The notes under the pieces are model-generated. The model was not told the origin of the DNA. It did no database searches and saw only the letters and a list, made by a program, of their open reading frames with translations. The position numbers and the translations under genes are program-made. From a virus: a stretch of DNA of 36,712 nt. The stretch is from positions 1 through 36,712 of IMG/VR virus record IMGVR_UViG_3300028678_000165; one strand, 5' to 3'. Positions 12 to 35,818 of the stretch are shown here, one piece after another. The number at the start of each line of letters is the position of its first letter. Position 1 is the first letter of the stretch.

Positions 12-24
12 AATTATTTGAAAT
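12..24 (+). repeat. 13-bp direct repeat, left copy (candidate att core)
   Basis: AATTATTTGAAAT at 12-24 overlaps the integrase stop codon and last residues. An identical 13-mer is at 36027-36039 beyond the cargo gene. Position at both ends of the prophage fits attL and attR cores, but low complexity allows chance. Confidence 0.3.
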
Positions 25-1390
25 GAATGTCTAAATTGTGCTCTTTATCTATAGAAATCTTATCTATAAAAGAGCGCCAAAACTGGTTTTTTTCTTGAAT
101 ATCAAGAGCAGGATATAACTCATTTATATCGCAATCTAGCAGTTCACGAACTCTTCCTAAATCTTTAGTAGGATTAATTGAAGGTTTAGGAAGACTGGAA
201 ATAAGTTTTTCATAATTGTTTTTATCAATTTTGTATTCCTCAAGAGTAATTAGATCATTTAAATATAAGTCTTTCAGCTTGGATATTTTTTCTTCAAGCT
301 TTTTTTGTTTACACATATTGTCAACTGCAGGAGCAGAAGTTATTTCATATTCAGAAATATACTTTTTTATTTCATCTTTAATAATCTCTAAAAGCCTTCG
401 TTCAAGAGTTTTTTCATTGTACACTTTTACGTTATCGCAAACATTTAATTTATTTAGTTTGCATTGACATCTATAGCTAGGATATGTATATGGCGATTGT
501 GTTCCATCAGCTCGTCTTCTGTGACGAACAGAACAAGATGACAACCTGTATCCGCAATGAGCGCAATAAAGCAGACCAGAAAAAACATAATCATGAGTTT
601 TGTTTGCGCGTTGATTTCTTTTTAATAATTGATTACATTCTTCCCACAATTCTTTGCTCACGATAGATGGGCAATAGTGTAAATTATTTCTGTATTCACC
701 TTTGTACTTGGTATTCTGCATTAACTTACGAAATTGAGCATGACCACGTAAGATGCCTAGCTCATCCGCTGCATATCTCATGCAAGCTCTTAAATTTGGG
801 TTCTTTTGATAATATTCATAGATTTTCACAACTTTTTCGGCATCATCATTTACGACGAGATGCTTATTTTTAATCGAATAACCAAGTGGAGTGGTACCAG
901 ATATAACTTCCCCAACTTTCACTTTATATTCGAAAGTTGAAAGTATTCTTTCAGAATCAGTTTGTGCTTCTAACTCAGCAAAGGTCATAGATTGTGCAAC
1001 AAATGCGCGACCTTGTGCAGTAGTTGTATCATAAAAAGGCTGGGATACAGCAAGCCAACCTATATTGTATTTTTCTAAAGTTGCTTGTGTGTTCAGATAA
1101 TGACGTAACGAACGAAACCACCTGTCAAGTTTTGTAAATATGATTAAATCAACCTGATTAGATTTCACATCCTCCATAAGTCGGGAAAATTCGTCACGAT
1201 CTAATTTTTGCCCTGATATACCATCATCAATATATACAGAGTGAAGTATCATGTTATGTTCATTGACATATTTCTGCAAAGTGTCCTGCTGTTCAGCCAG
1301 AGAATCACCTTTTTTTGCTTGCCTATCCGTACTTACACGGACGTAAACGGCAACTCTTTTTAATGGATTTTCATTGTTCATCTTAGTCAT
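14..1390 (-). CDS. int: Large serine recombinase (phage integrase)
   Basis: Serine integrase catalysing site-specific insertion and excision of the prophage. The N-terminal resolvase domain (about residues 12-155) has the YVRVSTDRQ motif with the nucleophilic serine and the usual downstream arginines (SGQKLDRDEF, TKLDRWFRS). A recombinase domain follows, then a zinc ribbon (CAHCGYRL with later paired cysteines) and a C-terminal coiled coil. At 458 residues it is within the normal size range. I chose the ATG at 1390 because AGAAGG lies 6 nt upstream; an in-frame ATG at 1447 would add 19 residues with no ribosome site. It reads out of the prophage at the left edge, so the left attachment site should lie at or just beyond position 1. 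Family identity is certain; the att position is inferred. Confidence 0.95.
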   Translation of the reverse strand: MTKMNNENPLKRVAVYVRVSTDRQAKKGDSLAEQQDTLQKYVNEHNMILHSVYIDDGISGQKLDRDEFSRLMEDVKSNQVDLIIFTKLDRWFRSLRHYLNTQATLEKYNIGWLAVSQPFYDTTTAQGRAFVAQSMTFAELEAQTDSERILSTFEYKVKVGEVISGTTPLGYSIKNKHLVVNDDAEKVVKIYEYYQKNPNLRACMRYAADELGILRGHAQFRKLMQNTKYKGEYRNNLHYCPSIVSKELWEECNQLLKRNQRANKTHDYVFSGLLYCAHCGYRLSSCSVRHRRRADGTQSPYTYPSYRCQCKLNKLNVCDNVKVYNEKTLERRLLEIIKDEIKKYISEYEITSAPAVDNMCKQKKLEEKISKLKDLYLNDLITLEEYKIDKNNYEKLISSLPKPSINPTKDLGRVRELLDCDINELYPALDIQEKNQFWRSFIDKISIDKEHNLDIHFK

Positions 1391-1432
1391 AAAATGCCTT
1401 CTTTCTATTTTTTTGTATAAAAAATACACCTG

Positions 1433-1461
1433 TTGCCAGATGTACATTGAAATGATATAAT
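1433..1461 (+). promoter_or_regulatory. Sigma-70 promoter facing right, upstream of a small RNA
   Basis: TTGCCA at 1433-1438 and TATAAT at 1456-1461 are separated by 17 bp, which is near consensus. No plus-strand gene of normal size follows before a terminator at 1511-1544, so the promoter appears to serve a short RNA. The -10 box is half of a perfect inverted repeat (1453-1461 with 1477-1485) that also places a TATAAT on the minus strand pointing to the integrase. Confidence 0.6.
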
Positions 1462-1467
1462 TTTCTT

Positions 1468-1544
1468 GTCGAGATGATTATATCAGATGTTTGTCTGGTA
1501 TCAGTCTATGAAAGCCGTTCTGTTAGTAGCAGGGCGGTTTTTTT
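1468..1544 (+). ncRNA. Candidate small RNA of about 75 nt between int and the lipoprotein gene
   Basis: The predicted transcript starts about 7 nt after the -10 box and ends in a strong intrinsic terminator. Its 5' half folds as an 8-bp hairpin (1480-1487 with 1494-1501, one G-U). Its 3' half is a 12-bp terminator stem (1511-1522 with 1530-1541, three G-U pairs, 7-nt loop) running into a T tract at 1538-1544. The neighbours on both sides are on the minus strand, so the terminator belongs to neither. I see no ORF with a ribosome site inside. The target is unknown. It could act in trans, or its transcription could oppose leftward read-through into int. Confidence 0.5.
1511..1544 (+). terminator. 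Rho-independent terminator of the small RNA
   Basis: A 12-bp stem with a 7-nt loop (TTAGTAG) is followed by seven T residues on the plus strand. Read on the minus strand the stem has two C-A mismatches and no T tract, so it works in one direction only. Confidence 0.7.
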
Positions 1545-1546
1545 AT

Positions 1547-1996
1547 TTAATTGGATTTTGAAAGATATATTGTCGTTGTTGTACCTAATGCAGATGCAGA
1601 GTAAGATATTTTATTATCTGAATATGAAAAATCTTTTGTGCCATCGGTAGATGCCAACATGGCATTGTCAGTTTTTGCTTTATCTCTTGTGGAAACCCAT
1701 TTATATTCGTCTTTAGAGTCTTTTGGAGCATCATAAGTTCCTATCCAATAAATAGATTTTGTGTTTCCGTTGTCAGAAATCCAATTAATGGAAATCACAC
1801 TATTAGAAATTTCAGCTTCCATCCAATTTCCATCGTTATTTTTAGATTTCCATGTTCCACTAAGATCCAATGGCGATTTCTTTGTTTCGGATTGAGCTGC
1901 TTTTGAAGTTTTGCTTTCTTTCGAAGTTGCACTTGCTCCACATCCCGATATAATTAAGGCTGTTATAGTTAATAAAATAATAAGTTTCTTTTTCAT
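1547..1996 (-). CDS. Secreted lipoprotein in the lysogeny operon
   Basis: A 149-residue lipoprotein. Residues 1-18 form a lysine-rich N-terminus and hydrophobic signal, and the lipobox ISGC puts the lipidated cysteine at residue 19. A Ser/Thr/Lys-rich linker (about 20-42) leads to a compact domain starting LSGTWKSK, rich in W, S and T, which looks beta-rich and resembles small extracellular domains. GGGAG lies 7 nt before the ATG. It is the last gene of the repressor operon, 18 bp after the PH-domain gene, so it should be expressed in the lysogen. Lipoproteins at this position in other temperate phages (for example Ltp of Streptococcus thermophilus phage TP-J34) block superinfection. That role here is inferred from position and signal only. 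Confidence 0.8.
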   Translation of the reverse strand: MKKKLIILLTITALIISGCGASATSKESKTSKAAQSETKKSPLDLSGTWKSKNNDGNWMEAEISNSVISINWISDNGNTKSIYWIGTYDAPKDSKDEYKWVSTRDKAKTDNAMLASTDGTKDFSYSDNKISYSASALGTTTTIYLSKSN

Positions 1997-2014: not shown

Positions 2015-2389
2015 TTATAAAATATAGCCACTTATAATTTGACCAATTCGCACAATATCACTTCCACCAGCAAATTCAAATTTTACTTTCCCAAGTCCAC
2101 TATAATATAATTCTAGTTCACTGTCTAAATCAAATACACCAGCTGTTTCTATAGAAAAAGCTTGTATTTTGGAATAAGGCAATGTAGAAAAGTCCTTTTT
2201 CTTTCCAGTCACCCCTTGAACATTTACAGCAATAATACGTTTTTCTGTGAAGACTACAAAATCACGCATAGATTTGTAAGAACCTATTATCCCCTCGTCT
2301 GGTACTAGTATTGGCGCAATTAGACCTGCAGTATCTTCGTTTTTAGTTTTCCCTAATTTAATAATTGCTTTGTTTTGAAAATCAATCAT
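2015..2389 (-). CDS. Bacterial PH-domain protein (bPH_1-like)
   Basis: A 124-residue protein that is nearly all one domain resembling the bacterial pleckstrin-homology family. Support is the pattern GIIGSYKSMRDFVVFTEKRII (around residues 35-55), typical of PF08000-like domains, followed by alternating strands and a C-terminal helix. Start is the ATG at 2389 with GGAG 7 nt upstream; an earlier in-frame ATG at 2428 lacks a ribosome site. It overlaps the end of the upstream ImmA-like gene by 8 bp, so translation is coupled. No membrane segment or signal peptide. Family members of this size are common in phages and genomes without a known role; function unknown. Confidence 0.7.
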   Translation of the reverse strand: MIDFQNKAIIKLGKTKNEDTAGLIAPILVPDEGIIGSYKSMRDFVVFTEKRIIAVNVQGVTGKKKDFSTLPYSKIQAFSIETAGVFDLDSELELYYSGLGKVKFEFAGGSDIVRIGQIISGYIL

Positions 2390-2870
2390 TTTTCTTCTCC
2401 TTATTATCGTATATTTCGAGCACTCCAAGTGGCTCGAAATAAATTATATAATTATCTGCTTTTACATACAAGCCGTATTTTTTCCTATAATACTCGATAG
2501 CTTCCACAAAAAACTCCTCTGTTACATTCAGAAACTCTGAAATTTCAGCTATAGTTCGGCACCCTTTTTTATAAGCGGAAATTATATCTTGCAATGCTAT
2601 AGCTCTTGTATATGCCCATGCTCTGGCTTTTAGTTCCTGTTTTACGTTAGAAACAGAAGATTGATCTAAAATATTCCCCACAGTTGCATGATGATGTCCT
2701 AATTCTTCTGCTAGGGTACAATTCTTTTCTTTAAATGTAATATTTTTCTTTATTGCAATTCTATTTCCATTAATTCTCCCAGAACCAGACGTTAACTTTG
2801 CTTCTTTAGTTACCAAGCCTTGTTTATCTGCTTCTTCTAATAAAACTTCATAATTTGTTATAAGTCTCAC
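2382..2870 (-). CDS. ImmA/IrrE-like protein with altered metal motif
   Basis: A 162-residue protein matching the ImmA/IrrE metallopeptidase type that cleaves or inactivates phage repressors. The HExxH helix is recognisable in LAEELGHHHATVG but reads EELGH (residues 55-59): the first metal-binding His is Glu, while two further His (60, 61) follow directly. A later helix (ARAWAYTRAIALQDI) fits the region that normally supplies the third ligand. The start is GTG at 2870, the only usable start after an in-frame TAG, with AGGGA abutting it; this start is uncertain. It lies 11 bp after the repressor gene, the classic ImmR-ImmA arrangement, so the repressor is the likely partner. Whether it is catalytic is unclear. 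Confidence 0.75.
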   Translation of the reverse strand: MRLITNYEVLLEEADKQGLVTKEAKLTSGSGRINGNRIAIKKNITFKEKNCTLAEELGHHHATVGNILDQSSVSNVKQELKARAWAYTRAIALQDIISAYKKGCRTIAEISEFLNVTEEFFVEAIEYYRKKYGLYVKADNYIIYFEPLGVLEIYDNKEKKND

Positions 2871-2881
2871 TCCCTAGTAAT

Positions 2882-3331
2882 TTAGTTAGTCCAAAAATTG
2901 TCATCGTTCATGATGTCATTGTCATGTTCTATTTCTTCTTGTGTTGCATCTTTATTCATATGAGCTGCGATTGGCTTTTCAGCTTCTTGTAAATCATATA
3001 ATGCTTTCATATTATCTAAAATTCTTTTCTGGTTAGGTTTTGATAGATTTTTGTATTGCTCAATAATTTTTCTATAATTTCTATCGACACTAGGCATTTC
3101 AATAATAACATTTGAATCATTTCCAATATTTAATAAAAAATCAACATTTTCTTCAATTAGAGATTCTAGATTTACGTGAAAGTACGTGGCAATAGAATTT
3201 AATTTTTCTGCACTTGGCTTATTTTTATCTATTTTGCAAAGCGAACCTCTAGCAAAATTCAAATCTTTTTCAATTTTATTAATAGAAACTCCATTTGCCT
3301 TAGCCAATTCTTTTATTTTATCGTATAGCAT
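2882..3331 (-). CDS. XRE-family phage repressor (CI-like)
   Basis: A 149-residue DNA-binding repressor. Residues 1-62 form an XRE-type helix-turn-helix (KIKELAKANGVSINKIEKDL, then the recognition segment ARGSLCKIDKNKPS). The remaining acidic C-terminal part probably mediates oligomerisation. GGAGG lies 5 nt before the ATG at 3331; an ATG 12 nt earlier has no better site. It is divergent from the Cro-like gene at 3557 and separated from it by three operator-like repeats. Its HTH is clearly related to that of the 3557 protein (shared GS[LV]CK core), as expected for a CI/Cro pair binding the same sites. No autocleavage Ser/Lys domain is evident, fitting inactivation through the ImmA-like neighbour. 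Confidence 0.85.
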   Translation of the reverse strand: MLYDKIKELAKANGVSINKIEKDLNFARGSLCKIDKNKPSAEKLNSIATYFHVNLESLIEENVDFLLNIGNDSNVIIEMPSVDRNYRKIIEQYKNLSKPNQKRILDNMKALYDLQEAEKPIAAHMNKDATQEEIEHDNDIMNDDNFWTN

Positions 3332-3348
3332 AATTTCCTCCAATGTAT

Positions 3349-3430
3349 CTGAAAAAATTGCGTAAAAAAAGTATTGACATTCTGAATTAATTACGTATAA
3401 TAAAAATATAACATCTGAATTATTTACGTA
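3349..3430. promoter_or_regulatory. Three direct-repeat operators at 33-bp intervals in the genetic switch
   Basis: A 16-bp element reading CTGAATTAnTTACGTA occurs at 3382-3397 and 3415-3430 (15 of 16 identical), with a diverged copy at 3349-3364 (13 of 16). Starts are exactly 33 bp apart, about three helical turns, so bound proteins would sit on roughly the same face. The central copy fills the spacer of the rightward promoter and overlaps its -10, the right copy is just after its start point, and the left copy is 18 bp from the repressor start codon. The repressor and/or the Cro-like protein are the expected ligands. Confidence 0.7.
3374..3401 (+). promoter_or_regulatory. Early rightward promoter
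   Basis: Perfect TTGACA (3374-3379) and perfect TATAAT (3396-3401) with a 16-bp spacer occupied by an operator repeat. It drives the Cro-like gene at 3557 and probably the whole early region, with a leader of about 150 nt. The leader holds no ORF that I can support. Confidence 0.8.
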
Positions 3431-5237: not shown

Positions 5238-5594
5238 ATGCAAAAAGATACATTAGATAACATTGACTCAACAATAAACGAACTTTGCAATTGGGTAAAA
5301 AAATATGCATCTGAAATTACACCAGATGGCGATGATATCGTTTTTTCAGAAGTAGTCAAAGGATTGGGAACCTTAGTTCAAGCAAGGGCGGAAATGGGGG
5401 AATGTATGAGAGTAACAGTTGCAGAAGCAGCAGAAATAATCGGCTGCAGAAAAGAAATTATCCACAGCAAGATGAAACGTGGGGAATGGGATTTAGGACA
5501 GGCTATAAAGCCAAAGCGAGCCGGCGGAAATTATCATTATATTATTTTCAGACCAAAGCTAGAAAAATTCTTGGGAATCGAAAAATCATTATGA
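5238..5594 (+). CDS. Excisionase/helix-turn-helix-like DNA-binding protein
   Basis: A 118-residue protein in two parts. The N-terminal 55 residues are helical and acidic. The C-terminal part (TVAEAAEIIGCRKEIIHSKMKRGEWDLG) is a MerR/excisionase-type helix-turn-helix that recognises an element by its first helices, followed by a wing (GGNYHYIIFRPKLEKFLG). GGAGG precedes the ATG by 5 nt. It may be the recombination directionality factor for the serine integrase, since such factors are often small HTH proteins placed away from int, or simply an early regulator. Choosing between them needs experiment or homology. Confidence 0.65.
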   Translation: MQKDTLDNIDSTINELCNWVKKYASEITPDGDDIVFSEVVKGLGTLVQARAEMGECMRVTVAEAAEIIGCRKEIIHSKMKRGEWDLGQAIKPKRAGGNYHYIIFRPKLEKFLGIEKSL

Positions 5595-35020: not shown

Positions 35021-35818
35021 ATGGAAAAAACAATAAGTATATATCATTATACATCACCAGAAGGCCTTTTAGGGATTTTGAATAAAGGAAAACCTCAAAT
35101 ATGGTTTTCAAGATATGATCTTCTCAATGATAAGGAAGAAGGAACAGCCTTTCCGGCTAAAACCAATAATATAAATGATCTTTTTGTATCTAGTTTTTCA
35201 AAGAATGGGGATTCTTTACCGATGTGGAATTATTATTCAAAAAATGGAAAATACTTAGGATATAATATTGAATTAAAAGTTAGTGAAATTAAAGATGATA
35301 TTCAACTTAAATTTGGCGAAGAAAACTCTCCTTTCAAGGAAGAATTAGTAGCTAGTATAATTGCAAAGCTTTTTGTAGACTATAAAACCTCTAAATCAGA
35401 TACCCAAGAACTTTCAAGATTTATAGAAGATAATCAGTCATTCAATTACGATAAAGATTTGTTTCTGCAAGGTAAATACATTAAAAATAACTGGATTGAA
35501 TTTGTTAAAAAACTATGTTCTTTAGCATTTAAAAATGAGAGTTTTTTCCATGAAGAAGAAGTTAGGTATGCGTTCAAGGAAGAAGATTTGAAAAAGGTAT
35601 ATTTTATTAATAAGAATAAAAATGGTAAAAAATATCGAATTGTAAATGGAATAATTATTCCATACTATGAAATAGAAATAAAACCAGAATACGTAAAATC
35701 AATTACAATGGCACCACTTATACAAGAACGAGACAGTTCAGGATTAAGAGATTACTTGGATAGCTATGGATATAATGATGTTGAAATTAAAATGTCTGAT
35801 ATAAAAATTAGATATTAA
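35021..35818 (+). CDS. DUF2971 family protein, cargo gene beyond the lysis module
   Basis: A 265-residue protein of the DUF2971 type: ISIYHYTSPEGLLGILNKGK at the N-terminus, IWFSRYDLLNDKEEG (28-42), the core VSSFSKNGDSLPMWNYYSKN (56-75), and FFHEEEVRYAFKEEDL near 175-190. The order of a YHYTS strand, a Gly-Ile-Leu helix and a later Glu-rich EEEVRY resembles ADP-ribosyltransferase-like folds, which is an inference. A TATAAT at 34986 may be its -10; the ribosome site is weak. It lies after the late terminator next to the presumed right end, the usual place for lysogenic-conversion or defence genes. Confidence 0.8.
   Translation: MEKTISIYHYTSPEGLLGILNKGKPQIWFSRYDLLNDKEEGTAFPAKTNNINDLFVSSFSKNGDSLPMWNYYSKNGKYLGYNIELKVSEIKDDIQLKFGEENSPFKEELVASIIAKLFVDYKTSKSDTQELSRFIEDNQSFNYDKDLFLQGKYIKNNWIEFVKKLCSLAFKNESFFHEEEVRYAFKEEDLKKVYFINKNKNGKKYRIVNGIIIPYYEIEIKPEYVKSITMAPLIQERDSSGLRDYLDSYGYNDVEIKMSDIKIRY

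Follow-up and report, generated by a model that had tools for sequence, protein, structure and literature searches.

A conserved small RNA gene on the strand opposite a prophage integrase leader, a candidate antisense attenuator of integrase transcription

In plasmid pIP501, sense and antisense transcripts start from convergent promoters, and the antisense RNA binds the nascent leader and blocks its antiterminating fold, upon which transcription stops (PMC4981023). RNAIII of pIP501/pAMbeta1 and RNAI of pT181 each have their own promoter and terminator and lie opposite the leader of an early-terminated gene, the plasmid rep gene, which encodes the replication initiator. Phages, too, carry small regulatory RNAs. 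The P4 CI RNA, processed from a same-strand leader, confers immunity by RNA-induced transcription termination and controls replication genes, and the antisense RNAs OOP of lambda and sar of P22 pair with the cII and ant mRNAs, respectively. Antisense attenuation is thus known from plasmids and has apparently not been described for integrases; in the literature, of which our coverage was partial, we found no integrase under this type of control.

The window analysed here, the whole of a 36,712-nucleotide stretch of IMG/VR record IMGVR_UViG_3300028678_000165, is a tailed-phage provirus with tape measure, endolysin/lysis genes, and a serine integrase. Between the integrase gene (int) and an accessory gene it holds a small RNA unit (Table 1), which we interpret as an antisense-RNA transcription attenuator of int. 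We put the probability of this reading, based on sequence comparison and predicted folding, at slightly above one half. The unit shares its arrangement with RNAIII and RNAI: by sequence and conservation, an antisense RNA equipped with a promoter and a terminator of its own faces the leader of the gene to be controlled. It differs in its target, the adjacent gene being a phage integrase and not rep, in the embedding of the antisense promoter within the putative antiterminator palindrome, and in RNA length (~77–90 nt here, 136 nt for RNAIII). With P4 CI RNA it would share phage origin and premature termination as the presumed mode of action, although the RNA here is antisense, has its own promoter, and lies before int. 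OOP and sar are likewise phage antisense RNAs that are short, similar in length, and end in a terminator, but they have not been proposed as int attenuators.

Table 1. Features of the small RNA unit and its surroundings (window coordinates)
Feature	Position	Strand	Remarks
Serine integrase gene (int), proposed regulated gene	14..1390	-	Integrase homology, Pfam
T(-), intrinsic terminator directly before int	1415..1445	-	Stem 1445-1424, then TTTTTATAC
A-tract box GTATAAAAAATAC, conserved	1415..1427	+	UP-like on +; U-tract of T(-) on -
Palindrome, ~75 bp; arms ~1430-1466 and 1470-1505	1430..1505	.	Putative antiterminator hairpin on integrase-strand RNA
-35 element TTGCCA	1433..1438	+	TTG and final A invariant in alignment
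-10 element TATAAT, extended, TGATATAAT	1456..1461	+	ATGATATAAT invariant in alignment
Small antisense RNA, +1 = G1468	1468..1544	+	Predicted transcript
Mirrored promoter-like site CTGATA-16-TATAAT	1477..1504	-	-10 match at least 5/6 in 24/40 relatives
T(+), intrinsic terminator of small RNA	1510..1544	+	Stem covaries in relatives
Lipoprotein-like accessory (moron) gene, co-directional with int	1547..1996	-	No Pfam match
Lysogeny operon: bacterial PH-domain protein, ImmA/IrrE-type peptidase, HTH repressor	2015..3343	-	

An earlier note on this sequence had proposed an unannotated small RNA gene at the locus, with a TTGCCA, 17 bp, TATAAT promoter and a unit of about 75 nt opposite to both neighbours. 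Both features were confirmed: the sigma-A promoter scores 11/12 at 1433-1461, with TG ahead of the -10 hexamer, and some 77 nt follow on the + strand between neighbours on the - strand. The terminator described there as 12 bp is present and longer, T(+) having a terminator-like stem of 15 pairs (1510-1542) followed by T's. Protein-coding content had been denied, and a peptide-coding reading indeed fails, as the terminator comes after it and the frame is not conserved. The region of the unit has three terminator-like sites versus 0.4 ± 0.6 in shuffles, and the 77 nt fold at -28.9 kcal/mol (z = -5.2 versus shuffles), giving the terminator hairpin and, ahead of it, a 5' hairpin at 1476-1506. The 5' hairpin, previously given as an additional 8-bp element, exists but is only the local fold of one arm of the palindrome. 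This promoter-spanning palindrome and the opposite-strand terminator T(-) were both missed earlier. Rfam 15 yielded no family match in the window at the gathering score, and for 12 relatives no match located in the unit, even at E ≤ 1.

The most likely int start is the ATG at 1390, preceded by a Shine-Dalgarno-like AGAAGG; the listed ORF start (1447) is an in-frame upstream ATG inside the promoter region. The stop codon of the lipoprotein-like gene lies 2 bp from the small RNA end. There is no room for an int promoter between this stop and the unit, and little or none after T(-). From 3560 down to int, the - strand of the window showed no terminator other than T(-). A candidate promoter of the repressor operon, TTGACA-17-TACAAT (11/12), lies at 3507-3479 on the - strand; together with a rightward 12/12 promoter (3374-3401, +) it flanks the repressor start, and the two are likely the repressor and early promoters, respectively. 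An attP site at the unit was considered and rejected, because the int 3' end is where both the record and its phiFL relatives start, and the attachment site therefore belongs there.

Relatives were sought among IMG/VR prophage contigs by terminator/promoter pattern or by integrase homology, the integrase relatives being fetched with an alignment that included the phiFL2A integrase, as single-sequence integrase queries were unsuccessful. This disclosed about 40 relatives in prophages of gut bacteria, from which 40 distinct units were extracted and 35 aligned. Promoter, +1 G, RNA, and terminator recur in these contigs, which strongly supports the small RNA gene as real and conserved. Invariant in the 35-member alignment are TTG and A of the -35 element, ATGATATAAT, and the +1 G. 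Among 10 contigs picked by terminator alone, 9 have TG followed by a -10-like hexamer and a -35-like element upstream; promoter conservation is therefore independent of the search. Whole-unit DNA and exact-terminator searches with the window sequence found no relatives, and BLAST of the relatives' units against phages and plasmids gave no match. None of 299 genomes from the phylum to which an Enterococcus genome belongs contained the unit, as judged by the exact promoter pattern. A divergent version was recognised by eye in the isolated R. gnavus phage RG-TP1 (TTGCGT-17-TACAAT, palindrome, and terminator).

The constant neighbour of the unit is the integrase. Where the left-hand gene is covered, it is in nearly all relatives an opposite-strand integrase starting close to the unit, and Pfam assigned the adjoining integrases to the serine recombinases in some relatives and to the tyrosine recombinases in others. 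Six relatives carry the unit opposite and upstream of integrases just 44–48% identical, and two others have more divergent versions upstream of int. On the right-hand side, the gene is variable and co-directional with int, its stop mostly 0–25 bp from the unit end. This accessory slot holds lipoproteins, zinc-ribbon proteins, secreted proteins with GEWKQDTNGWWYQNDDGSY-like repeats, and ImmA-type peptidases, each gene ending a few bp from the unit; a search with the window's lipoprotein found no relatives. The Enterococcus relatives (phiFL phages, L016, L031, L084, and L085) have a similar layout that is shorter: int is abutted directly by the hairpin, with no sign of a T(-) as a distinct element. 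In these four contigs, L002, and L037, a promoter with its -10 in a hairpin (for example TTGTTT-17-TAAAAT or TTGAAT-17-TATAAT) precedes a strong terminator opposite int, an arrangement that appears from its sequence to be a minimal version of the unit's layout.

Every member listed has a long imperfect palindrome with the promoter in one arm and the RNA start in the loop. Since the + strand RNA starts in the loop and contains arm B only, the small RNA cannot itself fold into this palindrome. Matches between the two arms of one member score 41.7, compared with 20.8 for shuffled arms and 35.3 for the arms of other members, and five members keep their arm pairing despite quite different sequences. 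An invertible promoter was rejected, the entire region being palindromic and not just its flanks. The mirrored promoter-like site was likewise rejected as an int promoter, its -10 being kept in just 24 of 40 relatives; a transcript from it would be devoid of arm B' and would be expected to end at T(-) in every case.

T(-) overlaps the left end of the palindrome, directly before int. In the conserved left box, GTATAAAAAATACGCCCC-TTGCCA-GGACGC, the integrase strand reads GCGTCC-TGGCAA-GGGGCGT-ATTTTTTATAC, that is, a stem, a loop, and a T-run before int; in the window the terminator is GTACATCTG-GCAA-CAGGTGTAT-TTTTTATAC, with the -35 hexamer in its loop. Reading the A-tract box solely as an UP element was rejected, as the box is also the U-tract of T(-). 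A perfect stem of -4 kcal/mol or lower abutting the T-run is present in 27 of 40 members, as opposed to 12% of shuffles; the sense leader thus holds an intrinsic terminator with a strict stem in most members, not all, the stem being missing in about a quarter and weak in a few more. Its stem cells are paired in 87.5% of cases versus 33–68% when the register is slid, and its G-U pairs are valid on the integrase strand only. As the pair counts are hardly higher than after shuffling within columns (covariation score 88/500), the support for T(-) comes from in-register pairing and strand-specific G-U pairs more than from covariation.

The 5' half of T(-) lies within arm A, which pairs with arm B' in the leader RNA, and the complementarity of the small RNA extends to precisely one palindrome arm of the int leader. 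In predicted folds of 30 members, the median P(T-) was 9e-5 for the intact leader and 0.93 once the stretch covered by the small RNA was removed; in 25 of the 30 this removal raised P(T-) more than 5-fold. In silico, then, an alternative hairpin that excludes the terminator is predicted to be undone in these 25 once one arm is covered by the antisense RNA. Positions of about +30 to +45 of the small RNA set the effect, which shuffling of arm B weakens, the median P(T-) rising to 0.16. For the window's own leader the switch at equilibrium is a weak one, P(T-) going from 0.73 to 0.996; here the order of synthesis (B', then A', then the terminator 3' half) would have to matter.

According to the attenuation model, the co-directional lysogeny/moron operon would supply int mRNA by read-through. 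B' would pair with A' in the nascent leader and tie up the 5' half of T(-), allowing the polymerase to continue into int. The strong promoter inside the palindrome supplies, as sequence and comparison indicate, an RNA of ~77–90 nt opposite the integrase leader that ends at T(+). Starting in the palindrome loop and fully complementary to B', this RNA would bind B' and free A', so that T(-) forms and transcription stops before int. The lysogen would thereby keep its integrase silent despite an active repressor operon, whereas upon infection int would be readable until the small RNA accumulates. The common order, in temperate phages, of repressor operon, accessory gene, and integrase on one strand leaves integrase-off with repressor-on largely unexplained in these hosts; a compact attenuator, if true, would explain it, as well as the occurrence of one module before unrelated integrases.

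Identity across the family is 41% for +1 to +20 and 82–85% for the promoter. Specificity of the RNA of each prophage for the prophage's own leader would follow from the hypervariable first ~20 nt. Two isolate genomes carry two units each, with promoters identical at 45/47 and 45/49 positions and recognition halves at just 39/53 and 43/54. Such pairs, differing mainly in the recognition sequence, are as expected for RNAs that have to avoid cross-talk, to judge from sequence. U-turn (YUNR) loops as in plasmid antisense RNAs were found in 2 of 16 distinct T(+) loops and are unsupported. More tentatively, the units could form a widespread, undescribed class of phage RNA switches, namely attenuators with hypervariable loops in front of serine and tyrosine integrases in gut-bacterial prophages. 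Their behaviour would be incompatibility-like: coexisting prophages would be regulated independently, and a superinfecting relative that shares the loop of a resident prophage could have its integrase silenced by the resident. A compact antisense attenuator before int would in itself carry the logic of plasmid-style RNA copy control over to phage integration, along with a specificity code of its own, and would provide a new RNA family for annotation.

The main rival, which we consider rather unlikely, is transcriptional interference or insulation: by polymerase collision and termination, the strong antisense promoter and the two terminators would protect int against read-through and the lysogeny genes against antisense transcription, and the RNA itself would have no role. 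The promoter and both terminators are in fact the best conserved parts, the unit sits exactly between the neighbour's stop and int, and some integrase relatives have a simple bidirectional terminator only (L026). Interference leaves unexplained, however, why the promoter lies wholly in a covarying palindrome, why the RNA starts in its loop, and why the first 20 nt diversify.

An RNA acting in trans on host or other phage mRNAs is less probable still. Host mRNAs and a competing phage had been suggested earlier as targets alongside int; of these, int is the best supported, by antisense control of its leader, and the other two are unsupported. The seed would be the linker GGYAAGAGAAAATCTATGTG, which is unpaired between the hairpins and 82% identical across the family, yet the window has a degenerate copy and divergent members have none, and elsewhere in the phage just scattered 11-nt complementary matches occur. 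The strict location beside int favours action in cis.

In Frpo elements, a long hairpin holds both the -35 and the -10 in its stem (PMC11541004), and the unit likewise has both inside a foldable stem. We weighed, as a very unlikely alternative, an element acting as DNA, either a cruciform or single-stranded DNA presenting a double-stranded promoter (Frpo/ssi) or a protein-binding dyad. The palindrome shows no integrase-strand bias: stem mismatches number ~113 G-T versus ~59 A-C on the + strand (boundary columns left out), which leans against selection on the integrase-strand RNA, although promoter constraint on one arm may explain the excess. Frpo/ssi, however, belong to conjugative elements entering as single strands and lack an opposite terminator before an integrase. 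The window, by its tape measure, endolysin, and serine integrase, is no such transferred strand. T(-) would also be left unexplained, and the arms vary freely, unlike a fixed protein operator. An RNA anti-CRISPR, a solitary CRISPR-repeat mimic with its own promoter, is hardly credible: Racrs are also prophage-borne, non-coding, and promoter-driven (PMC10651486), but palindromy with the RNA's own promoter dictates half of the RNA here, this half differs strongly from member to member, and no likeness to a CRISPR repeat was noticed.

Additional observations concern the wider family and the window. Two terminator types, AAGCCGTTC..GGGCGGTTTTT and AAAAGCTCTGG..GGGGCTTTTT, are swapped family-wide between units with the same promoter and arms (L112 versus L114, for example), which points to modular recombination. 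Four integrase relatives without the unit have a LexA-type box, GAACNNNNGTTC, ~90–130 bp before int; based on this box, other members of the integrase clade may be SOS-controlled instead. The early region of the window also contains a GAACNNNNGTTC box and one near-match, at 5368 and 5849. After the lysis genes, the protein encoded at 35021-35818 (+) matches the PADLOC candidate defence family PDC-S31 (E 2.9e-7).
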